A stretch of DNA of 41,679 nt from contig JACMRA010000009.1 of NCBI GenBank assembly GCA_014376695.1, forward strand, positions 1 to 41,679, written 5' to 3'. The position numbers and the translations under genes are program-made. The notes under the pieces are model-generated. The model was not told the DNA's origin, ran no database searches, and saw only the letters and a program-made list of their open reading frames with translations. This document shows, one piece after another, positions 2,442 through 20,031 of this stretch. How positions within the stretch are numbered: the first letter of the stretch is position 1; every line of letters starts with the position of its first letter. This DNA is from Minisyncoccota bacterium (GTDB lineage: Bacteria > Patescibacteriota > JACMRA01).

Positions 2442-3263
2442 ATGTCTATAAAAATCACAAAAAAACAATTAAGTATATCTGGTATTATATTAGCTATAAT
2501 TGCTATCCTACTTTTATTCTATCCTTTTATTAATCCATTTATATTTATTACAGGTACAATGAATTATAAAGCAACGGATTATTATAAGTTTCTTAATTAC
2601 AATCCGTTAAAACCTGTATTTGTAACAAGACCTATCCCATCAGTATTAATTTATAAGACTTACGAACGGGTGGGTTTATTCGAATTTAAAGAAGTTGCTA
2701 ATGAAAAAGTTAATGTGTTAAATTACAATATAACTGATAATGAAATTTCTGATACAATAGCAAAAACAGATTTGCGAAATGAAAATCCAGACGAACAAAA
2801 ATATATTAGTACTTATAAGGAAAATTATCTTGTGAAAATTGAGAGTCAAAAAGAACAAGAAAGAATGGGGGGAATTATGAATGAGTTTAAAAAACCGGCC
2901 GAGTGTAGATTAATTTATTCTGATATTACTCGAAACAAAACAGGGTCGATATTATTAGAAGACTTAAAATTTTTAACCAAAAATATTGGAGGATCTGATT
3001 TTCAAAAAAATATAAAGAAAGAAACCTTAGAATCACTTGCTACCGCATCAAATGAATTAGCAGGTAAGTCAGTAATGGATGTTAAGTTATCAAATCCTAA
3101 AATCTATAAAATAATTATCTACTTCGATGACAATTACAACACTAACACCCAAGCCAAAATTACAAAATTAGTTTTAGTTGACCGAGACTGTAACCAAACC
3201 GAAATCCCAACCAAACCAGACGGAACCTTCGACTTCGAGGCGGTTCGGAGTAAATGGGAGTAG
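2442..3263 (+). CDS. Membrane-anchored hypothetical protein
   Basis: The product has 273 residues. A short cationic N-terminus is followed by one long hydrophobic segment (about residues 13-40), then a mostly hydrophilic domain of about 230 residues rich in Lys, Asn and Asp. This predicts a single-pass protein with its main domain outside the cell. I recognise no family or catalytic motif. It lies 4 nt after the peptidase-lipase gene and probably shares its transcript, so it could be a partner, anchor or protective protein for that enzyme; this is inference from position only. A TATAAA box at 2425-2430, 11 nt before the ATG, could also give it its own short-leader transcript. Base composition is clearly more A+T-rich than in the upstream gene and matches the following restriction-modification genes. 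Confidence 0.75.
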   Translation: MSIKITKKQLSISGIILAIIAILLLFYPFINPFIFITGTMNYKATDYYKFLNYNPLKPVFVTRPIPSVLIYKTYERVGLFEFKEVANEKVNVLNYNITDNEISDTIAKTDLRNENPDEQKYISTYKENYLVKIESQKEQERMGGIMNEFKKPAECRLIYSDITRNKTGSILLEDLKFLTKNIGGSDFQKNIKKETLESLATASNELAGKSVMDVKLSNPKIYKIIIYFDDNYNTNTQAKITKLVLVDRDCNQTEIPTKPDGTFDFEAVRSKWE

Positions 3264-3329
3264 AGCTTGACAAACAATCCCAAAAATGATCTCCTTGATT
3301 ACTCCTATTCCTACATCAAAATAAACTTT

Positions 3330-3623
3330 ATGCCCACAAATCAAACTACAACAATCGAAGAGCTAATATCGAACATACAATCAATTCTTGAGCGAAACGA
3401 GGATAATCTTGAACTTTTATCTTTGGATGAGGATGACAAAGAAAGTTATCCAGTCATAATTAGAGAAAATATTGTGATAAAGAGAATTGAATTATCAGGC
3501 GGTGAAATCAAATGTTACGGGACAAATTCTGGCGGTAATGATTTTGAAGAATTATTAATCAATCTAAATTATGGCGAAATCGCAGAAATCTACTTTTTTA
3601 TAAAAAATGAAATAATCTGTTAA
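3330..3623 (+). CDS. Small hypothetical protein
   Basis: This acidic protein of 97 residues has no signal peptide or membrane segment. It begins MPTNQTTTIEELISN, predicted as a helix, followed by alternating strands. The frame can be extended upstream to a TTG at 3267, but that TTG is only 3 nt past the previous stop and is itself part of a TTGACA string, and the extension has no visible initiation signal, so I prefer the ATG at 3330. The gene ends 1 nt before the adenine methylase and appears co-transcribed with it. No family recognised. Position suggests an accessory to the restriction-modification operon, for example a controller or a small unrelated cargo gene, but there is no helix-turn-helix that I can point to. 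Confidence 0.6.
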   Translation: MPTNQTTTIEELISNIQSILERNEDNLELLSLDEDDKESYPVIIRENIVIKRIELSGGEIKCYGTNSGGNDFEELLINLNYGEIAEIYFFIKNEIIC

Positions 3624-3624
3624 A

Positions 3625-4473
3625 ATGAAAAATAAAAATCCGTTATTACAACCGTTTCTAAAATGGGTTGGTGGAAAACGTCAGCTTTTACCAGAAATTA
3701 GAAAGTTAGTGCCAAAAAAATACAATAGTTATTACGAGCCATTTTTAGGCGCTGGCGCTGTATTATTTGATCTAAAACCTAAAAAAGCTGTTGTAAATGA
3801 TTTGAATGAGGAGTTAATTAATTGCTATAAAGCTATAAAAGAGGAATTATTGGATCTTATTAAAGATTTAAAAAACCACAAAAACACCTCGGAATATTTT
3901 TATGAACTAAGGCAAAAAGATAGAACTGCCGAATATGGTCAATTAACAAGTTATCAAAAAGCCTCCCGTATTATATATCTTAATAAGACTTGTTTTAACG
4001 GCCTGTTCCGCGTGAATAGTCAGGGGCAATTTAATGCACCATTTGGTAGATATGCAAATCCATCATATCTCAACGAACCAGTACTAACTGCGGTACGTAA
4101 CTATCTGACTGAAAATGATATCACTATCACGAACAGCGATTTTACAGAAAGTTTGCAAACTGCCAAAAAAGGTGATTTTGTTTATATTGATCCACCTTAT
4201 GATCCGATATCTGACACAGCATCTTTCACAGGTTATAACCTAAATCAGTTTTACCAAAATGATCAAAGAAGACTAAAAACTTTAGTAGATGAACTTAACA
4301 ATAAAGGTTGCCATATATTGCTTAGTAACTCCTCAACTGATTTTATCAGAGATTTATACAAAGATTATAACATTAGGACAATTAAAGCTAATAGAAATAT
4401 CAACTCAAATGCAGAAAAACGAGGAAAAGTTGACGAGTTGTTAATTTATAACTACGATCTCGAAATATGTTAA
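3625..4473 (+). CDS. DNA adenine methylase, Dam/DpnM type (D12 class)
   Basis: The enzyme transfers a methyl group from S-adenosylmethionine to N6 of adenine in a short DNA site. At 282 residues it has the usual length for the D12 (Dam) family. Visible motifs are an N-terminal LKWVGGKRQLL segment (about 13-23), the SAM-binding motif EPFLGAGAV (38-46), and the catalytic DPPY (189-192) followed by the NLNQFYQNDQRRL region. The conserved LNKTCFNGLFR stretch precedes the target-recognition region. Members of this family most often act on GATC; the exact site here is not proven. The stop overlaps the start of the next gene by 7 nt, the arrangement expected of a methylase-endonuclease pair, and the A+T-rich composition points to horizontal acquisition. 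Confidence 0.93.
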   Translation: MKNKNPLLQPFLKWVGGKRQLLPEIRKLVPKKYNSYYEPFLGAGAVLFDLKPKKAVVNDLNEELINCYKAIKEELLDLIKDLKNHKNTSEYFYELRQKDRTAEYGQLTSYQKASRIIYLNKTCFNGLFRVNSQGQFNAPFGRYANPSYLNEPVLTAVRNYLTENDITITNSDFTESLQTAKKGDFVYIDPPYDPISDTASFTGYNLNQFYQNDQRRLKTLVDELNNKGCHILLSNSSTDFIRDLYKDYNIRTIKANRNINSNAEKRGKVDELLIYNYDLEIC

Positions 4474-5855
4474 AATCAAAAGCTCCTCTAAAGTCACGAA
4501 AATTGGTTATTAATAGGTGTCCGACATTAAACGATAAAGCTTGGGATCTTTTATTCGCAAAGCATAATGTTTTAGAGGGTATTAAAAAGGAAGGCTATTT
4601 TAAAATCAACGCTAAGGACATTAACGAGTTTAGAGAGGCTCGATTGATGACTAAATTTGATAATGGAGATAATTTACCGTGGATATTTCACACTAATGCC
4701 TATGCCTATGAATTAAGCATCCTCCCCGATTCTCGAGGCAGTTATGTAATAGGGGAGTTCCAAACCTATCAAACTCTAGATTTTGGTAAAGTAGCAGATC
4801 TTAAATCTGTGGCAATTCAATCGGCAGATGTACTAGAATCTCTTGATTATAACGATCTTTACTCAGAGAGTAGTGCTATTTTAGCCGCTTTTAATACAGG
4901 TATATTAGCCGATTTGCTAGGGGTAGATAGGGCAAGTCTTCGACTAACTGTAAATGGAAGAATGTCAACAAAAGATTTTAATTTCAAAATTAAGTTAAAA
5001 TCAAGCGAGCAAATCTCTTTTCAAGTCACCAAGTCCCAGTGCGAGATAGATGCAGGGTTGGAATCGGGAGATAAATTTTTAATCATAGAAGCTAAAAATT
5101 ATCTGGCGAAAGATTTTTTGATACGGCAACTGTATTATCCTTATCGGCTCTGGAAATCAAAAATAAAGAAAGATATCATCCCTGTCTTTATGTGTTATTC
5201 TAACGATATTTTCACATTTTTTGTTTATAAGTTTGATATAGAAGACGACTATAATTCAATATCCCTTGTCAATTCAAGCCAATATACTTTTAAATCGGTC
5301 ATTATAGAATTGTCAGATATTCAAGAAATACAAAATATTGTAGAAATACTTCCCGAGCCTAGAGACTGCCCTTTCCCTCAAGCTGATAGTTTTGAACGCG
5401 CTAGAGATCTGCTAAATTATATATATGTAAATGAGTTTATGTACAAAGATGAGATGATTACAAATTTCTCACTTACTCCTCGCCAATTTGATTATTATGT
5501 TAGCGCCCTTAGGTATTTACAGTTAATCACTTTGCGCAAAGTCCAAATTGATAATAAAAGACATATTATATGCGAGCTAACAAAACTTGGTACTAAAATA
5601 ATTAAGGCAAATAAACGTGAAGAATACCTATTACTAATTAGGCAGATTTTATCGTTTGGGATTTTTAACGAAATATTGGAGGGAGGGATGAGATGTGGAG
5701 ACATTTCAAAAGTGGATATTCCAAAAATTATCACAAAATATTATCAAAATAAGTTGACCGCCGCAACTATAGTTAGAAGATCTCGTACAGTTAGAAGTTG
5801 GATTAATTGGATTTTAGAAGTACCTGAGAAATTTGAATTTGATGATGTGGATTAA
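4467..5855 (+). CDS. Type II restriction endonuclease-like protein (PD-(D/E)XK)
   Basis: The product is 462 residues and partner to the overlapping methylase (ATG inside the methylase's last codons). A PD-(D/E)XK nuclease core is visible: acidic EID with Asp195, a 12-residue hairpin, then IIEAKN with Glu208 and Lys210, followed by a helix that carries RQLYYPYRLW. This is the metal-binding layout of many type II endonucleases. The region after about residue 300 is helical with an alternating pattern (RQFDYYVSALRYLQLITLRK) resembling a winged-helix DNA-binding domain. It is considerably longer than classical GATC-cutting enzymes such as DpnII or MboI (about 280-290 residues, established knowledge), so it belongs to a different endonuclease group; I cannot name it with certainty. 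The stop codon is the first base of the long palindrome that follows. Confidence 0.75.
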   Translation: MLKSKAPLKSRKLVINRCPTLNDKAWDLLFAKHNVLEGIKKEGYFKINAKDINEFREARLMTKFDNGDNLPWIFHTNAYAYELSILPDSRGSYVIGEFQTYQTLDFGKVADLKSVAIQSADVLESLDYNDLYSESSAILAAFNTGILADLLGVDRASLRLTVNGRMSTKDFNFKIKLKSSEQISFQVTKSQCEIDAGLESGDKFLIIEAKNYLAKDFLIRQLYYPYRLWKSKIKKDIIPVFMCYSNDIFTFFVYKFDIEDDYNSISLVNSSQYTFKSVIIELSDIQEIQNIVEILPEPRDCPFPQADSFERARDLLNYIYVNEFMYKDEMITNFSLTPRQFDYYVSALRYLQLITLRKVQIDNKRHIICELTKLGTKIIKANKREEYLLLIRQILSFGIFNEILEGGMRCGDISKVDIPKIITKYYQNKLTAATIVRRSRTVRSWINWILEVPEKFEFDDVD

Positions 5856-8591: not shown

Positions 8592-11500
8592 ATGTTAAGA
8601 AACCAAATAAAACAAACATATACATATATTGCTCGGGCCATTAAGGTCGGTAGCACAATCGCAATCGGGCTGGCCTCGTTGCTTGGAACAGGACTTATTG
8701 CCTACAATCCATCGAGTATTAAGGCTAATGCTACGCCAGTTTATAGTTGCCCTGCGGGGAGTGTGCTAGTTGGTACCAGTTGCCAATCCTATACATGCGG
8801 CGATAACTCTGCACCAGTAGCCGGTAACTGTGCGGCTAACCAATATGGATTATCCGAATGCAATACCGCTCCAGCGGGCGCAACCAAAGTATTACTACCA
8901 TACTACCAAGTTTCTTACGGTGGGGGACTCTGCACAACTAAACCCGACTTATTTCGAATAGGTAGTTGTAAGGCAGGTGGCGTGTGGCCAGAGCCTATTC
9001 AATCTGTTGGCCCAACACCAGGCAATACTTCGTATTCGACCAATGGTAAATACTGGTGGGATCCTGCTGTATCTGCAGGTACGCAGTGGGATTATATACA
9101 TGGTAACGGTACTCAAGGGATTCAACCATTAGGGCGATCCGGTACGGCATATGGTGTCGGAGCTAATTTCAGTGCTTACATTGCTAATAATAACTGGAAG
9201 CCTCTTATCAATCCTTATCTTGATCCGAATGTATACGGAAATAACGGTCAAAACTACGAAAATGTCGTAAACGCCTTCAATCAAGATGTGCTACAAAATA
9301 ATATGTGTACGCAGTACAAAATAGCTAGCGTTGTTTGCTTAATTCCTAGAACTAGTGCGACAGGCCCGCTTTGCAATCAATACAAATACACATTCGAGAG
9401 ATTAGGTAATTATAGGGCTTGTGATCCTGGGTATGGTGTTTATATGAGACCTACCAATGGAGGGCACTCGATTGATACTACATTTGGAAGTGGAGAGGCT
9501 TCAATTGTTGATGATGTTTTGACTCGCGGGATGACTTCCCTCTGTATGAAATATGGGACGCCAACAGCTGGTCTTCAATCCATTGCTTACAGTACAGGGT
9601 ATCGACCAAAAAGCTGTAACTCAATTGGATTAGTTGAAGTTTACGCAACGGATCTAGGCGGTGGCGACCAAGAGGCCGACTCTCTCTGCATCCCAGGTAG
9701 CCCCCAACCAGCCTCTGTCGTTGGTAAAACTACGACCACCCAAGCAACCATAACCTCCAACTCACCAGACGGTTACCTAGATGGTATATCCAACACCGGC
9801 GTGGCTAGTGGTTGGGCTATCGATGCTGATCTACCTAATACTCCACTTGATGTACATTTCTACTTAGACGGTACTCCAACAGCAATCGGGACATATATGG
9901 GTAAAACAACAGCTAGCTACGTGCGACCTGATTTAGCCGCTCCTTATAACACCGGTAACAATGGGTATAGCTACAAAATCCCAAGTGCATATTGCGATGG
10001 GCAGTATCATACGGTAACTGCTTACGCAATCGATATACCAGCTGGAACTAATAATAACACCAAATTACTTGGATCACCAAAAGCCTTTACTCTAAGCCCG
10101 GCTCAGTGTAGCACTGGAATTACCCAAGCTAACATTGGTACGAGTAACAACTGTGTCACTAGTAATGCCCAATTCGTGGATAAAGTAACAACTAACGCCA
10201 CTGGCAGCAAAATTCAATGTTTGTTCCCATTGTCAGGAAGTGCAACTAATGACTACATCTTGCCAAGTACAGGAATCCAAGGTAGTATCAATGGTGCTAC
10301 AGGTACATCAGGAGCCTGCGTTGTAGATAATTTCTATCAACCAATTATGTATCGAAAAGTAGAAGCCAATCAAACAGTTGGTAAGTCATCGGTTATTGAA
10401 TACAGCCCATTAGACGGAAGACCAGTTGGTACTAACAAAGACAACTTCGATAATTACGGAGGCCCTGCTGCAGGTACTGGTAATGGAGCTGGAAACCTAC
10501 CAGTCAAAACAGGCTGGGTCAACGATACTGTCGCTGATATGAATGGCGATGGTAAACCAGATATGGTCTGGAGAAATTACGATACCACAGGAGGAGACGC
10601 TGGTAAAACAGTAATTTGGTTCATGGACAAAGAGCAGATTGTCAGTACAATGACCACAACTAGAAATGTAACTGATCCTAATTGGCATATTGTTGGAGCG
10701 GGAGACTTTGACGGCGATGGAAAGGCCGATTTGGCTTGGGCCAACTACGCAACTAAGTCTGTCATAATTTGGTATATGTCAGGTGGAAACACTACTGATT
10801 TGGTTTCGTCTGGTTTCTTAAAGCTTAACGCAACTGATACCAATACAGCAATTATTCCTGACGGTTGGCGAATTCAAGCCGTAGGGGATATGAACAACAA
10901 TGGCCGAGCTGAACTAGTTTGGAGACAGATCACAGGAGCCGGTCAAGTAGCTTATTGGTCAATCAATAGTGCAATAATTGATGCCAACAGTAGAAATATC
11001 TATCTTGACATGGCTAATAGCCAAACTCTCCCAGCGGCTAACAATATAGCTGATCAAACATTCCAAATCTATGCAGCTGGCAGTCTTGGAAGCGATAACA
11101 AAACTGACCTAGTCTGGGCCAACAACGCCCCAGCTAACAACGCCCCTACCAAAGTTTATGTTTGGAATATGGATAATACTACGCGACTTAGCGATGTAAT
11201 TATGGAAACTTTCCCAGGTAATCTAAGTCCATGGAAAATTTCGGGATTAGGCGATATGGATAATGATAGCAAACTAGACATTGTCTACAAATATTATGGA
11301 GCCGGTCAAGCCTACTTAATCTGTCCTATTATTCCAGCCGCTAACGGCCCACTTGGTATTCAACCTGTCAATGTAGCAATAGGCGGTCAAACTCCAGTAG
11401 CCAAGGGATCTGCCCTAATTACAGGAACAGCCCCAGTCGTAATCGGCCAGAGTAATTTAACTGCTGGTACTTGTACTGGTGCCGTAGTTGGAGCGACCTC

Positions 11501-13025
11501 AACTTGTCGATACCCACTAACGAACTCTGGATCGGGTAATATCTATGCACTCCCAACTACTCCAATTACAGCTACTGTGCCTGGGTCGTCTGTTTCGCCG
11601 GCTTGTGTGATCGGTAATAACGGTACCTCAACTGCTGAATTAGTCTGTAACAGTGTGCCAACCACAGGTGCAACCCCTGGTACAAAAGCTGTCCCAACTA
11701 GCCTTGGTGGTAGCCCAACTGCAAGCCTGGTCTTGACAGCTCCAATCCCAACTACCATTGGACTAACTAATTTGGTTGCCGGTACTTGTACTAGCGTGGT
11801 AACTGCAAGCCTAACAACTTGTGAATATCCACTAACTGGAGATGCTAATAACAACTACGCACTACCGGGAACTCCTATAACTGCCACGGTTCCAGGATCT
11901 ACTACCTCACCAGCCTGCGTCCTAGCCAACAACGGAACTACCGGTGCCAAACTAGTCTGTAATAATGTACCAACCACAGGAGCAACTGCCGGAACCAAAC
12001 AAGTGCCAACCAGCCTTGGAGCCAGTCCCGCTGCAACTCTTGTATTAAGTACAGTGCCTCCAACTACAATTACAGCAAGTAATCTAACCAATGGTACTTG
12101 TAACCCAGCAAGTGTAGCCTTAGGTACAACTACAACTTGTGAATATCCATTAACTGGAGATACTAATAACAATTATACACTGCCAAATACAGGTATCAAA
12201 GCCCAAGTCCCTGGAGCAACTAATCCAAGCGACGCTTGTACCCTAACAAATAACGGAACTACCGGTGCCAAACTAACTTGTTCCAACGTCCCAACTGCCG
12301 GTAGCGCCCTTGGCCAAGCAAACGTACCAACAACACTGGGTGGAACAGCAGTGGCTACCCTAACAGTTGTAGCCACTGGTACAACCTCAACCATTGCACT
12401 CAAAGTAATGCTTGCCGGTGCCTTTGATGGTTCCACCAGTATGATGAAAACCACTCTCAATACCAAAAACTTAGTACCAATGATGCAACCTTACAACGAT
12501 GCAACCTTTGGTTACGCTGGAACGGAGATGGTAACCACCATGCCAACTGACGCCGTTGATTGGGTACTAGTCGAACTTCGACAGGGAACTACAACCATAA
12601 CCAAAAAAGCTGGTATCCTACTTGCCAGTGGTAATATAATTGATGTAACTTCTACTTCTGGTATTGTCTTTAACAACCTACCAACTGGAAGCTACCAAGT
12701 AATTATAAGACACAGAAATCATCTTGCCGCCGCTACCAACGCACCTATCTCATTGATAGCAGGCCAAGGAGTAACACTTGATATGACCGATAACAGTAAT
12801 GTCAAAGGAGCTAATCAAACTATGCTTAAGACCGGTGTATACGGAATGCGACTAGCTAACACTAATGGTAACAACGCCATTAACGCAAGCGATCGCACCA
12901 TCAGTCGACAGGCTTCGGATGCTAATAACATCTACCGCCAAGCCGATGTCAATATGGATGGAATTGTCAATTCCCAAGATCGAACTCTTTCTAGACTTGC
13001 CAATGAAGCCATTGAGGTGATCTAA
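8592..13025 (+). CDS. Giant secreted FG-GAP/Ig-like/dockerin protein
   Basis: The product has 1477 residues. A basic N-terminus and hydrophobic segment (about 19-37, ending before SSIKANA) form a signal peptide. Residues 40-370 are Cys-rich with no family recognised. Residues 389-505 form a beta domain with SGWAIDADLP and a YLDG turn. A divergent Ig-like copy spans 510-585. Residues 640-910 carry four FG-GAP/VCBS-type calcium loops: DMNGDGKPD, DFDGDGKAD, DMNNNGRAE and DMDNDSKLD. Residues 941-1258 hold three Ig-like repeats of about 105 residues, each with CxYPLT, NNGT and VPT(T/A)G. The C-terminus (about 1417-1477) has two calcium-loop/helix units, TNGNNAINASDRTISRQ and VNMDGIVNSQDRTLSR, typical of a type I dockerin, a module that docks onto cohesins. 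It likely acts as a surface adhesin or scaffold-bound protein. A terminator follows. Confidence 0.9.
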   Translation: MLRNQIKQTYTYIARAIKVGSTIAIGLASLLGTGLIAYNPSSIKANATPVYSCPAGSVLVGTSCQSYTCGDNSAPVAGNCAANQYGLSECNTAPAGATKVLLPYYQVSYGGGLCTTKPDLFRIGSCKAGGVWPEPIQSVGPTPGNTSYSTNGKYWWDPAVSAGTQWDYIHGNGTQGIQPLGRSGTAYGVGANFSAYIANNNWKPLINPYLDPNVYGNNGQNYENVVNAFNQDVLQNNMCTQYKIASVVCLIPRTSATGPLCNQYKYTFERLGNYRACDPGYGVYMRPTNGGHSIDTTFGSGEASIVDDVLTRGMTSLCMKYGTPTAGLQSIAYSTGYRPKSCNSIGLVEVYATDLGGGDQEADSLCIPGSPQPASVVGKTTTTQATITSNSPDGYLDGISNTGVASGWAIDADLPNTPLDVHFYLDGTPTAIGTYMGKTTASYVRPDLAAPYNTGNNGYSYKIPSAYCDGQYHTVTAYAIDIPAGTNNNTKLLGSPKAFTLSPAQCSTGITQANIGTSNNCVTSNAQFVDKVTTNATGSKIQCLFPLSGSATNDYILPSTGIQGSINGATGTSGACVVDNFYQPIMYRKVEANQTVGKSSVIEYSPLDGRPVGTNKDNFDNYGGPAAGTGNGAGNLPVKTGWVNDTVADMNGDGKPDMVWRNYDTTGGDAGKTVIWFMDKEQIVSTMTTTRNVTDPNWHIVGAGDFDGDGKADLAWANYATKSVIIWYMSGGNTTDLVSSGFLKLNATDTNTAIIPDGWRIQAVGDMNNNGRAELVWRQITGAGQVAYWSINSAIIDANSRNIYLDMANSQTLPAANNIADQTFQIYAAGSLGSDNKTDLVWANNAPANNAPTKVYVWNMDNTTRLSDVIMETFPGNLSPWKISGLGDMDNDSKLDIVYKYYGAGQAYLICPIIPAANGPLGIQPVNVAIGGQTPVAKGSALITGTAPVVIGQSNLTAGTCTGAVVGATSTCRYPLTNSGSGNIYALPTTPITATVPGSSVSPACVIGNNGTSTAELVCNSVPTTGATPGTKAVPTSLGGSPTASLVLTAPIPTTIGLTNLVAGTCTSVVTASLTTCEYPLTGDANNNYALPGTPITATVPGSTTSPACVLANNGTTGAKLVCNNVPTTGATAGTKQVPTSLGASPAATLVLSTVPPTTITASNLTNGTCNPASVALGTTTTCEYPLTGDTNNNYTLPNTGIKAQVPGATNPSDACTLTNNGTTGAKLTCSNVPTAGSALGQANVPTTLGGTAVATLTVVATGTTSTIALKVMLAGAFDGSTSMMKTTLNTKNLVPMMQPYNDATFGYAGTEMVTTMPTDAVDWVLVELRQGTTTITKKAGILLASGNIIDVTSTSGIVFNNLPTGSYQVIIRHRNHLAAATNAPISLIAGQGVTLDMTDNSNVKGANQTMLKTGVYGMRLANTNGNNAINASDRTISRQASDANNIYRQADVNMDGIVNSQDRTLSRLANEAIEVI

Positions 13026-13571: not shown

Positions 13572-13701
13572 GCCATAAAAATATCGCTATTAATAACTGA
13601 TAGCTAGTAGTTTTGTTGATGTGAGCAAGATTTCTTGGCTTGACAGGGTTGTATTTATATGTGTAGGGTTACAGGTTAAAATCCTAAATACTATATTCTA
13701 T

Positions 13702-14364
13702 ATGCCCGACCAAGATCTTCCGTCTTTTGAATCTAATAAAGCTCCCCAGAAACCACCCTCAAGTTATGAGGGGCTAATTAAACTTGGTTTTTCTGCTGCG
13801 TTGGCTGCTATGGCAGCTAGTGTATTTTATTCTAATACTCAAGGGGCTCAAGTTAAGTCCCCTGCGGGTGGCCTACCGCCAACTCCATTGGCATCAAAAT
13901 CACCAAGTCTAGCTATACCCTCTACCTCGCCGTTTCCTACACCGCAATCACAAGCAAGGCAAACTCCCCTCCTACAACCTCCAACTCCCCAAGTAAGTCA
14001 GAAACCTCTTTCAGTCATACCGACAATCGGGCTGTCCACTCCCCGGCAAATCGTCGTACAATCACCACCTCTGAGTTTGATCCTAAAGCCTAGACTTCAA
14101 TCCGCAATTGTACCAACAGAAAAAAACAAAAATTTTTTAAATTTATCAAGCTACGAAAAAGAACTACGAGATGTTTTGGCGAAGCGTAACTTTGTCGTGC
14201 CTTCAGAAGGGGGTCTTTCTAGCGAAAATATCGATACTTTGTTCAGGGTTGGAGTGTTGTCAACTTTGGCCAGCGGTGAGGTTAAGATAAATGAAATTTT
14301 GTTGGGTCTGCTATTAGAGGCGCCTCAGCGAACACCAACACCAACACCCACTACCCGGCCTTAA
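13702..14364 (+). CDS. Membrane-anchored proline-rich protein
   Basis: From the ATG at 13702 the product has 220 residues. A GTG at 13621 would add 27 residues, but the ATG has -10-like boxes TACTAT (13689) and TATATT (13692) a few bases before it, matching the local leaderless style. A hydrophobic segment (LIKLGFSAALAAMAASVFY, about residues 25-44) anchors or exports it. The next 100 residues are a Pro/Ser/Gln/Thr linker, probably extended and surface exposed or spanning the wall. The last 65 residues (SSYEKELRDVLAKRNFVV onward) look like a small helical domain, then a TPTPTPTTRP tail. No family recognised. The 3' end overlaps the convergent MurI-like gene by 14 nt. Confidence 0.65.
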   Translation: MPDQDLPSFESNKAPQKPPSSYEGLIKLGFSAALAAMAASVFYSNTQGAQVKSPAGGLPPTPLASKSPSLAIPSTSPFPTPQSQARQTPLLQPPTPQVSQKPLSVIPTIGLSTPRQIVVQSPPLSLILKPRLQSAIVPTEKNKNFLNLSSYEKELRDVLAKRNFVVPSEGGLSSENIDTLFRVGVLSTLASGEVKINEILLGLLLEAPQRTPTPTPTTRP

Positions 14365-15190
14365 CCACGAACTGTTCTGGTTCGACATCTTCGCCAGTGT
14401 ATTTTTTGATTTGGTCTTTGAAAGCTTGGACTGGGCCGTTGGTGTAATACTTGGTTATTCCGCTATCGACCTTGAATTCTGGGTGTTTGTTGATGTATTT
14501 GACTATATTATGGGCAATTTCTGGGGCCGACATAACCATAACCACGTCGTCGTCGAATAGTTTGTGAATCCTATCGCCAATTAATTCAAAATGGGTAGAT
14601 CCCGGGACGATATATTTGACTTTATCGAGTAAGCTAACAAACGGTGACAAAATCTCCTTGAGAGCCATATCGATAGCCAGACTATCTCCAAATTCTATAG
14701 CTGTATTCAGCTTGTCAGCCGGAACAAAAATAGCGTTGTTAAAACCCTTCTTAAGACATTCTTGTTGATAATATCCTGTTCTAATTGAGGCGTGAGACAT
14801 CAAAAACAAACCAATTTCATCTCGTAAATGCCAATGTCGCTCAAACAAATCTTGACCTAGTGAGAGCCTTACGCCAATGACGGCCTTGCCCATACTATCG
14901 TATTCGGTCGGTATCCAGCGATGGACTAATTCATCGAGGCTAGTTAATGTCATCGTGTGCGTTGCCAAAACTACAAGATTAGATTTCATCTCGAACATGC
15001 TCTTGGCGGCCTTGCGGCAGCGATCTTGGAGCTGACTGAATCCGGCCGTGGAATCATAAACAAAAAACTCGGAGTCACAAAAATAATGGATGGCTATCTG
15101 TGGTAAAAATTTGCGAAGTTCGGGAATAATCGAGAGTCCGCCAATGCCAAGGTCGTAGATGGCTAGCGAGTTTTTTAGAGTGTTTTGCAT
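14351..15190 (-). CDS. MurI-family protein lacking both catalytic cysteines
   Basis: The 279 residues align along their whole length with glutamate racemase (MurI), which interconverts L- and D-glutamate for peptidoglycan using two cysteines. The frame is clear: YDLGIGGLSIIPELR matches the DSGVGGL region (Asp13 kept, next Ser replaced by Leu), VVLATHT (about 73-79) replaces VVACNT, and VPGSTHFEL (196-203) replaces GCTHFPL. So the first cysteine is Thr77 and the second is Ser198; His200 is kept. With neither cysteine, ordinary racemase activity is not expected. It may be a binding or regulatory protein, or a related racemase/hydrolase with altered chemistry. A promoter with -35 TTGACT (15223-15228) and weak -10 TAGTCT (15200-15205) lies 9 nt upstream. 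The body of the protein is intact, so it does not look like a pseudogene. Confidence 0.82.
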   Translation of the reverse strand: MQNTLKNSLAIYDLGIGGLSIIPELRKFLPQIAIHYFCDSEFFVYDSTAGFSQLQDRCRKAAKSMFEMKSNLVVLATHTMTLTSLDELVHRWIPTEYDSMGKAVIGVRLSLGQDLFERHWHLRDEIGLFLMSHASIRTGYYQQECLKKGFNNAIFVPADKLNTAIEFGDSLAIDMALKEILSPFVSLLDKVKYIVPGSTHFELIGDRIHKLFDDDVVMVMSAPEIAHNIVKYINKHPEFKVDSGITKYYTNGPVQAFKDQIKKYTGEDVEPEQFVVKAG

Positions 15191-15317
15191 ATTCCGAGAA
15201 GACTAAAATAGAATATTAGATTAGTCAATAGTCCAAACCTATTTGACAGAAAATTAAAAAATGTACAACTAGTAAGTCTACACTAATAATAATCAAATAT
15301 TTAAATTAATCTTATCT

Positions 15318-15575
15318 ATGTTTTCACTAATCGGCACAATAATTTTTGGAGGAATTGCAGGACTTATCGCAGGAACGATCCGCAAAGGCAGAGGCTACGG
15401 CATTCTATGGAATATCATAATCGGTATAATTGGAGGTGGCATCGGTCATTTTATCTTTAATGTACTCGGTTTTAACACCGCAGGTGCTAATTGGATTGCA
15501 AGCTTGATTGTTTCAGTTATCGGTTCACTAGTACTCTTAGTTATCCTAAACGTACTCGGCCGCAAAGACGTTTAG
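15318..15575 (+). CDS. GlsB/YeaQ/YmgE-type small membrane protein
   Basis: The 85-residue product has three hydrophobic segments (about 3-20, 28-50, 58-79) rich in Gly and Ile: IIFGGIAGLIAGTIRKGRGYG, then NIIIGIIGGGIGHFIF, then a final helix ending in LGRKDV. This is the pattern and length of the GlsB/YeaQ/YmgE (transglycosylase-associated) family of inner-membrane proteins, often linked to stress responses but of uncertain biochemical role. It is a single small gene between the MurI-like gene and dnaE, with A+T-rich sequence upstream and no clear Shine-Dalgarno. A weak hairpin with a GAGA loop (15599-15614) follows it. Confidence 0.88.
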   Translation: MFSLIGTIIFGGIAGLIAGTIRKGRGYGILWNIIIGIIGGGIGHFIFNVLGFNTAGANWIASLIVSVIGSLVLLVILNVLGRKDV

Positions 15576-15675: not shown

Positions 15676-18474
15676 ATGTTACTTCTGCGATCCTACTCCC
15701 ACTTTTCTCTTCTCTCGGCCATTCCTAAGGTTTCGGCTTTGATTATCCGGGCCAAAGAGCTTGGCTACACGACTATTGCTCTGACCGATGAAGATACGAC
15801 GGCTGGTTTAGTTGACTTCTGGGATAACTGCGTCAAGCACGGCATTAAGCCAATCCTTGGAACTACCCTAAATATCAAAAATCTAAGTAGCAGTTATGGC
15901 CGAACTTCCGGGTTCTCCAAAATAGCTCTTTTGGCTCGAGATTATATCGGCTACCAACAAATTTTGCGACTGGTAACATTGGCCCGAACGGTCAACGACC
16001 AGCCCAAATATCACATAAATCTTAGTGATCTTACTCCAGCCAAGCAGGCTGGTTTTGGTTGTAATTTTACCACGGTTATTACCGCAGATCACGAACTCTC
16101 TCAGCTACTAATGGCCGGAGACAGCAAACAATCAGAGAGTCTAATCCAGACTTATATCAAGACTCTTACCAAAGAGAATCTAGTTATCGAGTTATTAGTC
16201 CCTTTTTTTGATCAAGATGCAGAGGCCGTCAAAAAAGCCAATATTCTACTGGCCAGTATTTGTGACAAATTAGAAGTTAAGTATTTGGCTAGCCCTGCCG
16301 CCCGTTACCTAGAACAAGGCGACGACGAGCCATTTCGAGCTGTTCTGGCTATAAAAAAACAAGTTAGAATTGACAGTATTAAGCTTGAGCGATCTTTTCA
16401 CTTGCCAGGGGCCCAGGAGCTGGCTCAGATGTATGACTATCTCCCCAAGGCCACAGATTGGCAAACGCTTGATAAGACTTTTAACTGCACGCTAAGGACC
16501 GATTACGCTGACAAGGCAGGCGAGGCCTATTTTCCGCCAGTGGACCTTTTGGACGGTCAAACGTACGATGATTTGCTCAAATGGGAAACTTATATTGGGC
16601 TTTTGGTGCGGTTTCATCCAATTCAGCAGTCCCGCCAAAAATGGAAGCTGGTCTATCCTTACGCCTCTATTGATAAACTTGTTATTGACTGTCAGAATAT
16701 GCCAATAGATCCAGCGGTTCTCAAGTCTTACCCGTTGAGTTATTGGACTGAGCCTAATCGTATAGCCGAGTATATCACGCAGGTAGAAACCGAGCTAAAA
16801 ATTATCCGCGACAAAGGATATTCGAGTTACTTCTTGGTAGTCGGTGACTTAGCCCAATATTGCAAAGATAGTAATATTATGGCCTCGGCTAGGGGATCTG
16901 GAGCAGGTTCTTTGATTGGATATCTCAACAACATTTCAACGGCTGATACGGTCTTTTACCAGATACCGTTTGAGCGATTTCTTAATCCACTTCGACCGTC
17001 TGCTCCCGATGTGGATTTGGATGTAGCCGATGACAAACGCGAGCAAGTCATTCAATACCTAGTTACTAAGTACGGTGCAAATCGAGTTAGTCAGATTGGA
17101 ACTTACGGAACTATGGCACCGCGGGCGGCTATTCGCGACATTGGGCGAGTTCTTGGGGTCAATTACCGCAAATGTGACCAGTTATCCAAGCTTATTCCAA
17201 TGCCTCCCTTCGGAAAAAAGCCAACTTTCAAGTACACTTTCGAGAATTCAGCTGAGTTTAATCAAGTTTATGAGAACGACGACGATGTTGCCCGTATAGT
17301 TAATATTGCCAAATTAATTGAGGGTAATTACCGGCACAGCTCAGTCCACGCGGCAGGAGTTATGGTTACACCTACGCCGACCACGGATCATACAGCCCTT
17401 CAATGGGATAGAGAACGCAAGATGGTGGTAACTCAGTATGAGGGGAATGATTGTGAGCGAGTTGGTATTATGCCCTGTAAAATGGATATTTTGGGGATTG
17501 CTAATTTTTCGATTTTGGCCAACTCAATCGATATGGTAAAGCGGAACAAAGGGGTTGAGATTGACTTATTTAATATTGCCTACGACGATCCAAAAGTCTA
17601 TAAGCTCTTGTCAGAGGGTAAAACAATGGGGATATTTCAACTGTCTGGGGGCGGTATCACCAAATATTTAATTCAGCTCAAACCAACCAAAATTGAGGAT
17701 GTGATGGCTATGGTTGCCCTGTATCGCCCTGGTGCGATGATGAGTATTCCCGAGTTTATCCGCCGCAAAAACAATGCCAGCCTAGTCAAATACTATGTCC
17801 CAGAGATGGAAGATTGGATGACTGGAACCTATGGAATTTTGGTTTACCAAGAAGATATTATGTTTTTGTTTATGAAATTGGCTGGGTATAATTTTGGTCA
17901 AGCGGACAATGTACGGCGAGCTATGGGAAAGAAAAAAAAGGAAGTCCTCGAAAAAGAATTTGGTAATTTTACTGATGGGTGCCTGGCCCACGGCCTACAA
18001 GAATCCAAGATTAAGGAACTATGGGATTTGATTGTACCCTTTACCGATTATAGTTTTAATAAGGCCCACTCCTCTGCCTACGGAATAGTAGCTTACTGGA
18101 CGGCTTATATGAAAGCCAACTACCCGGCCGAATTTATGACGGCCTTGATGACTTCCGATGAGGGAGATATGGTCAAGACCCGAGATGCTATTAACGAGTG
18201 CATTGCAATGGATATTGAGATTATGCCCCCCGATATTAACCAATCTAATCAAACTTATACAATTATCGACGATACACGAATAGTCTACGGATTAGGCTCG
18301 GTCAAAAACCTTGGAAGCGACATAATTGGGCATATTGTTACCGACCGCGAGCGGGGCGGCAAGTTTGAGAATCTTGATGATTTTCTTGAGCGCATGTCAG
18401 CCATCGGTAATTTTAATAAACGCTCACTCGAGGCCTTGGTAGTCTCTGGAGCAATGGACGGACTGCGGGCGTAG
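15676..18474 (+). CDS. dnaE: DNA polymerase III alpha subunit (short form)
   Basis: C-family replicative polymerase of 932 residues. The N-terminal PHP domain is recognisable (SHFSLLSAIPKVSALIIRA, ALTDEDTTAGLVDF, KHGIKPILGTTL) but its metal ligands are changed: the usual HLHS is LRSYS and TDH is TDE, so it should have no phosphoesterase activity. The polymerase core is intact, with PDVDLDV (catalytic Asp447 and Asp449), KMDILG (Asp604), SSVHAAGVMVTP, and the fingers GIFQLSGGG and YRPGAMMSIPEF. The protein ends in the helix-hairpin-helix region (VYGLGSVKNLG to LEALVVSGAMDGL). E. coli DnaE has about 1160 residues and continues with the clamp-binding motif, OB fold and tau-binding domain; all are absent here. 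It has its own leaderless promoter and ends 9 nt from a convergent gene. No frameshift is visible. Confidence 0.93.
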   Translation: MLLLRSYSHFSLLSAIPKVSALIIRAKELGYTTIALTDEDTTAGLVDFWDNCVKHGIKPILGTTLNIKNLSSSYGRTSGFSKIALLARDYIGYQQILRLVTLARTVNDQPKYHINLSDLTPAKQAGFGCNFTTVITADHELSQLLMAGDSKQSESLIQTYIKTLTKENLVIELLVPFFDQDAEAVKKANILLASICDKLEVKYLASPAARYLEQGDDEPFRAVLAIKKQVRIDSIKLERSFHLPGAQELAQMYDYLPKATDWQTLDKTFNCTLRTDYADKAGEAYFPPVDLLDGQTYDDLLKWETYIGLLVRFHPIQQSRQKWKLVYPYASIDKLVIDCQNMPIDPAVLKSYPLSYWTEPNRIAEYITQVETELKIIRDKGYSSYFLVVGDLAQYCKDSNIMASARGSGAGSLIGYLNNISTADTVFYQIPFERFLNPLRPSAPDVDLDVADDKREQVIQYLVTKYGANRVSQIGTYGTMAPRAAIRDIGRVLGVNYRKCDQLSKLIPMPPFGKKPTFKYTFENSAEFNQVYENDDDVARIVNIAKLIEGNYRHSSVHAAGVMVTPTPTTDHTALQWDRERKMVVTQYEGNDCERVGIMPCKMDILGIANFSILANSIDMVKRNKGVEIDLFNIAYDDPKVYKLLSEGKTMGIFQLSGGGITKYLIQLKPTKIEDVMAMVALYRPGAMMSIPEFIRRKNNASLVKYYVPEMEDWMTGTYGILVYQEDIMFLFMKLAGYNFGQADNVRRAMGKKKKEVLEKEFGNFTDGCLAHGLQESKIKELWDLIVPFTDYSFNKAHSSAYGIVAYWTAYMKANYPAEFMTALMTSDEGDMVKTRDAINECIAMDIEIMPPDINQSNQTYTIIDDTRIVYGLGSVKNLGSDIIGHIVTDRERGGKFENLDDFLERMSAIGNFNKRSLEALVVSGAMDGLRA

Positions 18475-18483
18475 GACAAAAGC

Positions 18484-20031
18484 CTAAACTTTTCCATTTA
18501 ACAAATCCTCAGTAAATTGTTGTATCCCGGCATAATCTTGGTTGTAATTAGAAGTGTCTGGAAATTCTAATCTTTGGATTTTGGCCCAGACTATCTGGAT
18601 TAGTTTTTCGAGTCTATCAATCGGCTCTTGGATAGTCAAATCCATTTCGAGTGTTGCAATGGTACCGAGAATAGTATGTGATTTAGACTCCAACGGTTCG
18701 AGGAATTCGAGGCGACCAAGGGTAACTATTCGCCCGAAGTTGTATTTGGAGTTTTGCACCAAAAGCTTGTAGAACTCAAGTTGCCGAGCGTAAGCGGACA
18801 TTTTGATTTTGTCGTTATCTTGTGGATTTTCCCATTTGGTTTTGGCTTTGCCTGTCTTGAAATCAGTTACTATAACGTTGCCCTGAACATCGTATTCCAT
18901 CTTATCAATTTTACCTGTGATTATAGCATCGCCAAGCCTGACATCTTGATATTTGAAATCCTCTTCCAACTTGTAATTACCGTTTAATAAGCCTTGAAAT
19001 TGACTGTAATAAATTGGCAGAGCTTTTTGCCCCTGAATCAAACTGTCACCATAATCTTTTTTGTTCAGGCCTTGTTGCTTGAGGCTGGCTCCAAACTGTT
19101 CTAAGACTTCTTCGAGGGTAGCAGATCGGTGATTATCCTTGTAATACTGGTAATAATATCTAATGGCTTCGTGCATACTTGTTCCAAAGCTGGCGGATTT
19201 ATGTTTAGAGGAGGGGAATCGGATCAAATTTACCTCAAAAAAGTGGCCTGGCCCGCCCCGAGTAACGTCCAAATAATTATTAAGATGAGTAATTGACATC
19301 TTGTAATCCTTAAGTATAGGCCCAAAAAAGTCTTTTTGCGAAAGTGTAATTGGTAGCAAATGGTTAACTCGATTATATATTTGCTGGATGTAGTTTCGAT
19401 TATCGCTCGATAACCCTAGAACTGGCTCAAATTGCACATCTACAAAGGGGATTTCTTCCGTAGGTTTGCCCTGGGAATCGGTTTTAAATTTGAGTAAATA
19501 CAAGTTTTTTTTGGCTCGAGTTAAGGCCACGTACAACAATCTAAGTTTGTCATCTATATCATCTCGCTCAGCTTCTAATTGATAAATTTTTGGGAATTTG
19601 AGTTTGTTATTATAACCTTTGGCAGTGAACCAACTGTGCATATCAAAGTTTAGAACAAAGACATGGTCGAATTCGAGGCCTTTAGACTTATGAGCCGTCA
19701 TTAGCTCTACGACAGGTTGACCTGTATTTTGACCAGTTTCGACCTTGAGATTATTGGCTAGTTTCTCGCCCGAGCCTGTCATTAAGTCATAATATTCAAC
19801 GATATCCTTAAGATGAATATCCCCCGATTGATATTTATACTGGCGAACGGCGGACACAAAACCGCTTAGCCCAGAAAGTAGCTCGTAGTAATTTAGATTA
19901 GTTCTAGTAACTTGAGCCCTGTGCAAACTGCGGGACTCTTCGGGGCTTTGACTGTCCAGCCAAGACTTGAATGGAGAGCGAAAGGTATTAATTGCGGCGG
20001 TTGATACTTTTGGGTCGACTGGATTGGTCAT
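18484..20031 (-). CDS. UvrD/AddA-type helicase C-terminus plus RecB-family nuclease
   Basis: The 515-residue product corresponds to the end of a UvrD/AddA-like helicase-nuclease. Helicase motif V is seen as LMTAHKSKGLEFDHVFVL (about 170-187) and motif VI as LRLLYVALTRAKKNLYLL. A PD-(D/E)XK nuclease follows: SFGTSMHEAIRYYY (about 297), then GKIDKMEYD and VIVTDFKTGKAK with the expected Asp and Lys. Helicase motifs I-IV, including the Walker A and B boxes, are absent, and there is a stop codon two codons before the ATG, so no upstream extension exists. A TTGACA -35 box on this strand at 20068-20073 with CAATAT 17 nt further suggests real expression. It may pair in trans with a motor protein or work as a stand-alone nuclease; alternatively it is a truncated remnant. 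Full-length enzymes of this type repair double-strand breaks. Confidence 0.85.
   Translation of the reverse strand: MTNPVDPKVSTAAINTFRSPFKSWLDSQSPEESRSLHRAQVTRTNLNYYELLSGLSGFVSAVRQYKYQSGDIHLKDIVEYYDLMTGSGEKLANNLKVETGQNTGQPVVELMTAHKSKGLEFDHVFVLNFDMHSWFTAKGYNNKLKFPKIYQLEAERDDIDDKLRLLYVALTRAKKNLYLLKFKTDSQGKPTEEIPFVDVQFEPVLGLSSDNRNYIQQIYNRVNHLLPITLSQKDFFGPILKDYKMSITHLNNYLDVTRGGPGHFFEVNLIRFPSSKHKSASFGTSMHEAIRYYYQYYKDNHRSATLEEVLEQFGASLKQQGLNKKDYGDSLIQGQKALPIYYSQFQGLLNGNYKLEEDFKYQDVRLGDAIITGKIDKMEYDVQGNVIVTDFKTGKAKTKWENPQDNDKIKMSAYARQLEFYKLLVQNSKYNFGRIVTLGRLEFLEPLESKSHTILGTIATLEMDLTIQEPIDRLEKLIQIVWAKIQRLEFPDTSNYNQDYAGIQQFTEDLLNGKV

Follow-up and report, generated by a model that had tools for sequence, protein, structure and literature searches.

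Glutamate racemase (MurI) is a generally essential enzyme and a drug target. Racemisation follows a two-base mechanism with one cysteine on each face, and cysteine is preferred over serine or threonine as the base because its pKa and easier desolvation suit removal of the alpha-proton (PMC8142540). Known Cys-to-Thr variants keep the other cysteine and act as one-way racemases or, in one case, as a dehydratase (PMC8142540). In MurIs of E. coli, B. subtilis and Mycobacterium, inhibition of gyrase is uncoupled from racemisation (PMC10886550). Wall D-glutamate can also be made without MurI by the MurD2/MurL route of Xanthomonas, in which X. oryzae MurD2 carries Glu197 and Arg358 at the equivalents of Asp182 and Lys348, setting the use of L-glutamate (PMC8788868). 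The protein described here, P0001, shares a Cys-to-Thr change at a catalytic position with EcL-DER and MMP0739, one-cysteine members of the Asp/Glu racemase superfamily (PMC8142540); unlike these two, which retain one cysteine, it has none at either site.

A MurI homologue without either catalytic cysteine

The P0001 gene lies in the window, by which we mean the whole stretch of 41,679 nucleotides that was analysed, and belongs to a source genome (G000) of 0.96 Mb in 16 contigs that is 78% complete. The gene and its altered sites are as follows:

14351-15190, minus strand: degenerate murI homologue P0001, 279 aa (ORF translation, TIGR00067, PDB search, AF2, Foldseek)
15146-15154, minus strand: residues 13-15, DLG (canonical DSG; Asp13 retained, Ser14 gone; alignment)
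15053-15061, minus strand: residues 44-46, VYD (canonical PYG/PLG substrate loop), in the model's lowest-confidence block (alignment, AF2 model)
14954-14965, minus strand: motif 1, residues 76-79, ATHT (canonical ACNT; Cys77 to Thr, Asn78 to His; alignment, codons)
14591-14602, minus strand: motif 2, residues 197-200, GSTH (canonical GCTH/ACTH; Cys198 to Ser; alignment, codons)

A sequence-only reading of this DNA had described an otherwise intact gene for a full-length MurI homologue in which both cysteines are replaced, ACNT having become ATHT and GCTH having become GSTH, and our analysis agrees on each point. The frame opens with ATG and runs for 279 aa with zero internal stops, and the gene's codon usage is no outlier among the genes of the window. 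The NCBIfam model TIGR00067 (glut_race) matches P0001 with E=2.3e-15 and 56.7 bits, well below its curated equivalog cut-off of 146.65 bits; the canonical MurIs of three sister genomes (G001-G003) are likewise slightly under this cut-off, at 135-142 bits. A Pfam search of P0001 gave zero matches, and the top match in a PDB sequence search is the glutamate racemase 2gzm (E=2.5e-10, P0001 residues 6-271). The AlphaFold2 model, computed with 18 sequences (pLDDT 88, pTM 0.87), has the two-domain Asp/Glu racemase fold across the whole length of the protein, with its lowest confidence in the block 41-50 that contains the altered PYG loop. Foldseek ranked 48 glutamate racemase chains first for this model, with TM-scores of 0.64-0.79 by query length. 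According to the prediction, P0001 should adopt the racemase fold, and since the likeness spans the full length, the invariant glycines are retained and the 48 racemase chains came first, the resemblance to MurI is not due to chance.

P0001 was compared residue by residue with 28 aligned MurI homologues of the phylum. Cys77, Cys198, Ser14, Pro44 and Gly46 are identical in 28/28 relatives and all are changed in P0001, while Asn78, present in 26 of the 28, is replaced by His. Pocket positions have thus gone together with both thiols, of which the sequence-only reading had named only the cysteines. What P0001 has in common with MurI of the TIGR00067 type, besides the full-length fold and descent from the murI of its class, is the set of invariant glycines together with Asp13, Asp39, Thr79, Glu166, Thr199 and His200; it is unlike MurI in the residues lost, in its low score and in its position away from pth. 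The substitutions are not conserved among relatives, as G001-G003 are canonical and both cysteines are present in every aligned homologue. With no thiol left and the pocket changed, racemisation of glutamate by P0001 appears very unlikely.

The codons of motif 1 read GCA ACG CAC ACG and those of motif 2 read GGA TCT ACC CAT. The assembly is fragmented and incomplete, as would suit an artefact in which sequence errors in a normal murI, or a foreign contig carrying one, produced the observed pattern. ACG at Thr77, however, differs from TGT/TGC at 3/3 bases, so that a single sequencing error cannot produce this residue, and with the many further pocket changes an origin in sequencing error was rejected. 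The gene also sits inside its contig, has codon usage comparable to its surroundings and falls with its own class's MurIs in the tree, and we regard an assembly or binning artefact as highly improbable.

A change of catalysis is a second alternative, in which Thr77 and Ser198, with Asp13 and His200, might use a different substrate, or might catalyse an elimination or a reaction in one direction only. Replacement of both cysteines by hydroxyl residues and retention of supporting residues would agree with this, and single Cys-to-Thr precedents are available in EcL-DER and human trans-3-hydroxy-proline dehydratase (PMC8142540). These precedents lose only one cysteine, whereas P0001 lost both plus pocket residues, and the advantage of cysteine as a base in pKa and desolvation (PMC8142540) likewise speaks against thiol-free chemistry, which makes this alternative quite unlikely in our judgement.

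The motif survey covered homologous frames at 222 loci, with some genomes represented twice and a few frames partial or misaligned; 80 of its rows were drawn by a pattern permitting Cys/Thr and Asn/His at motif 1. Where the motifs aligned, no frame among the 222 besides P0001 has lost both cysteines. A contig search with P0001 alone as the query found no relative, and a search with a MurI profile and a pattern permitting Thr/His at motif 1 returned 80 MurIs. Another degenerate MurI occurs in G108 and G286 (loci L181 and L182), two congeneric species from a different Patescibacteria family, where the first cysteine is replaced by Asn (ANFL/ANYL) and the motif-2 His by Gln (ACSQ/ACGQ). Like P0001, it is a fast-evolved MurI descendant in genomes with no better MurI match; unlike P0001, it retains the second cysteine and DSG and has lost the motif-2 His. 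It branches away from P0001 in the tree, on a branch of 3.1, and this separate position indicates that degenerate MurI arose at least twice. Within the literature collection searched, no paper on a MurI pseudoenzyme was found.

Descent and genomic setting

The class is represented by six genomes (G000-G005), all of one family. In a tree of 135 rows, P0001 is sister to the MurIs of G001-G003 with support of 99/98, and the phylum relatives cluster with Falkowbacteria and Paceibacterota records, from which the source genome is probably a member of Patescibacteria. The end branch of P0001 measures 2.5 as compared with 0.48-1.0 in the sister MurIs, that is, 2.5-5 times longer, and this length lowers the certainty of the placement. 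The highest identities of P0001, 26-28%, are to the same three MurIs, which share 39-44% among themselves, and class positions including Trp92 and Pro94 are common to P0001 and the class MurIs. A stray paralogue or a transferred gene was rejected, as the tree puts P0001 with its own class.

In G001, G002 and G003 the canonical murI lies directly 3' of pth. The pth gene of the source genome (G000:C5:380-961) has no adjoining murI; the next gene encodes an ABC transporter, and a second murI at this site was rejected. Neither G004 nor G005, which represent two sister genera, has a murI beside pth (the G005 contig ends soon after pth), and no MurI was found elsewhere in either genome. Judged from tree and locus, P0001 is the lineage's own murI by vertical descent, moved away from pth. 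Its present surroundings are:

15191-15317, no strand: AT-rich divergent intergenic region, 127 bp, upstream of the P0001 gene (promoter scan)
13621-14364, plus strand: convergent neighbour without a Pfam match, overlapping the 3' end of the P0001 gene by 14 bases (Pfam search)
15318-15575, plus strand: divergent neighbour, Transgly_assoc (PF04226) small membrane protein (Pfam search)

A promoter of its own, which the sequence-only reading had assigned to the gene, was not recovered: the 127-bp spacer has no consensus site on the minus strand upstream of the P0001 start and no more sites than shuffled sequence, with the reservation that promoters of the phylum may differ from the consensus.

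Supply of D-glutamate and the wall pathway

A second murI or a D-amino-acid transaminase would offer the source genome a D-glutamate maker in place of P0001, and neither is present in the assembly. PF01177, TIGR00067 and a class profile each gave no second MurI, and there is no Aminotran_4 protein (the D-amino-acid-transaminase family, one member of which occurs in the sister genome G002), so that no other D-glutamate maker was found among the families searched. Alanine racemase (Ala_racemase_N), of which G002 and G004 have one each, is likewise absent from the assembly. As only 78% of the genome is covered, these absences are provisional, and a second D-glutamate maker could sit in the gaps. 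The suggestion of the sequence-only reading that D-glutamate comes from outside if this is the sole MurI fits these results with the same proviso.

The genome does encode MurC, MurD, MurT and both parts of MurE. Its MurD retains Asp182 and Lys348 (E. coli numbering) and, on that basis, should use D-glutamate; a MurD2-type enzyme was rejected, as the residues are Asp/Lys of the D-Glu-using type and not the Glu/Arg of Xanthomonas MurD2. MurF was not identified in the assembly, so the stem-peptide pathway may be incomplete, which counts against the explanation favoured below. On gene content, the D-glutamate and D-alanine building blocks of the lineage probably come from outside.

The murE of this genome consists of two genes, divided in the linker that precedes the C-terminal domain. 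The first part holds residues up to GRMQWVIWDNHLVG (G000:C10:11800-12720, L038) and the second the C-terminal ligase domain from MSQPNISVLVDYAHEPESMKQLL, in a 174-aa ORF near G000:C5:30129-30650 (L269:1333-1854). Both parts lie inside contigs and are 41-64% identical to the matching stretches of single MurE ORFs in five relatives; with both halves well conserved, the split looks like a true gene fission.

Retention or decay of the protein

Across 380 genomes of the phylum, a MurI-like match occurs in 144, of which 93 are over the cut-off and some of the weak ones resemble other racemases, and is absent in 236. A MurD-like match occurs in 368 of the 380, 264 of them over the cut-off, with a model that also touches other Mur ligases. 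Set against each other, these counts imply that having no recognisable MurI is usual in Patescibacteria, and they turn the source of wall D-glutamate in this phylum into a testable question. D-glutamate racemase activity is nevertheless reported for at least one member of the phylum, Ca. Saccharimonas aalborgensis, according to the citation of Penalver et al. (2024) in PMC11974145.

The explanation that we favour, at somewhat better than even probability, is that P0001 is a murI descendant without racemase chemistry, which persists as a folded protein in a lineage supplied with D-glutamate from outside. The murI of the lineage would have lost the pair of thiols on which two-base proton transfer depends along with Ser14, Pro44/Gly46 and Asn78, and the fold and some active-site residues would have persisted after the loss of racemase chemistry. 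D-glutamate for a MurD of the D-Glu type would then be acquired externally, D-alanine probably likewise as no Alr was found, and a host or neighbour would most likely be the supplier, through its D-amino acids or fragments of its wall. The second role might be ligand binding or a protein-protein interaction such as gyrase binding; the gyrase-inhibiting MurIs (PMC10886550) offer by analogy a candidate for a non-catalytic role that could outlive catalysis, although they differ from P0001 in being racemases as well. We infer the lack of activity, the outside supply and the retained second role; retention of Asp13, Glu166 and His200, which leaves room for some chemistry, counts against the first of these.

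Gene decay offers a different account of the same changes, in which D-glutamate is obtained elsewhere, selection on murI has gone and the protein is idle in a frame not yet broken. It draws on the very long branch of P0001, on the 236 phylum genomes without a MurI match and on two genomes of its own class, G004 and G005, which have pth and no MurI found, a pattern that fits decay. Loss thus seems tolerated in sister genera. The 279-codon frame, on the other hand, has stayed open through about 2.5 changes per site, where a random stretch of the same length and composition would be open with a probability of 5e-8, and this argues for ongoing selection on the fold. The codon usage noted above, the invariant glycines with Asp13, Asp39, Glu166, Thr199 and His200, and the confident predicted fold also run against decay, which we consider rather unlikely but a serious rival; a variant, recent decay following a long phase of changed function, could still apply. 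Weighing the open frame after very fast divergence against the tolerated loss, we find a retained non-catalytic role to be the slightly better reading, and infer that P0001 is kept for another role.

Taken more broadly, P0001 may represent a MurI pseudoenzyme whose fold is selected for binding or regulation, or for a new thiol-free chemistry, while wall D-amino acids are imported, with a similar path followed separately in a second Patescibacteria genus; this wider proposal is tentative and on balance doubtful. In a lineage with the MurI fold but without its chemistry, the catalytic and non-catalytic roles of the enzyme would be separated.

Several other features of the window were recorded. 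The dnaE at 15676-18474 encodes 932 aa and ends at the match to residue 891 of the 1160-aa E. coli DnaE, so that a C-terminal part of about 270 residues relative to E. coli DnaE is missing at this locus. Of an AddA/RecB-like helicase, its neighbour at 18484-20031 has just the C-terminal portion with the PD-(D/E)XK nuclease domain; its N-terminal helicase portion is absent from the locus, and this is possibly another split gene. A low-GC island at 2442-5855 (0.30-0.33 vs 0.40) carries a D12-class adenine methylase and a DUF6996/DUF6997/DUF7226 protein, likely a restriction-modification pair. Positions 8592-13025 encode a secreted-looking protein of 1477 aa that contains FG-GAP repeats as well as three repeat blocks resembling one another, and that ends in a dockerin-like stretch (dockerin judged by eye only).
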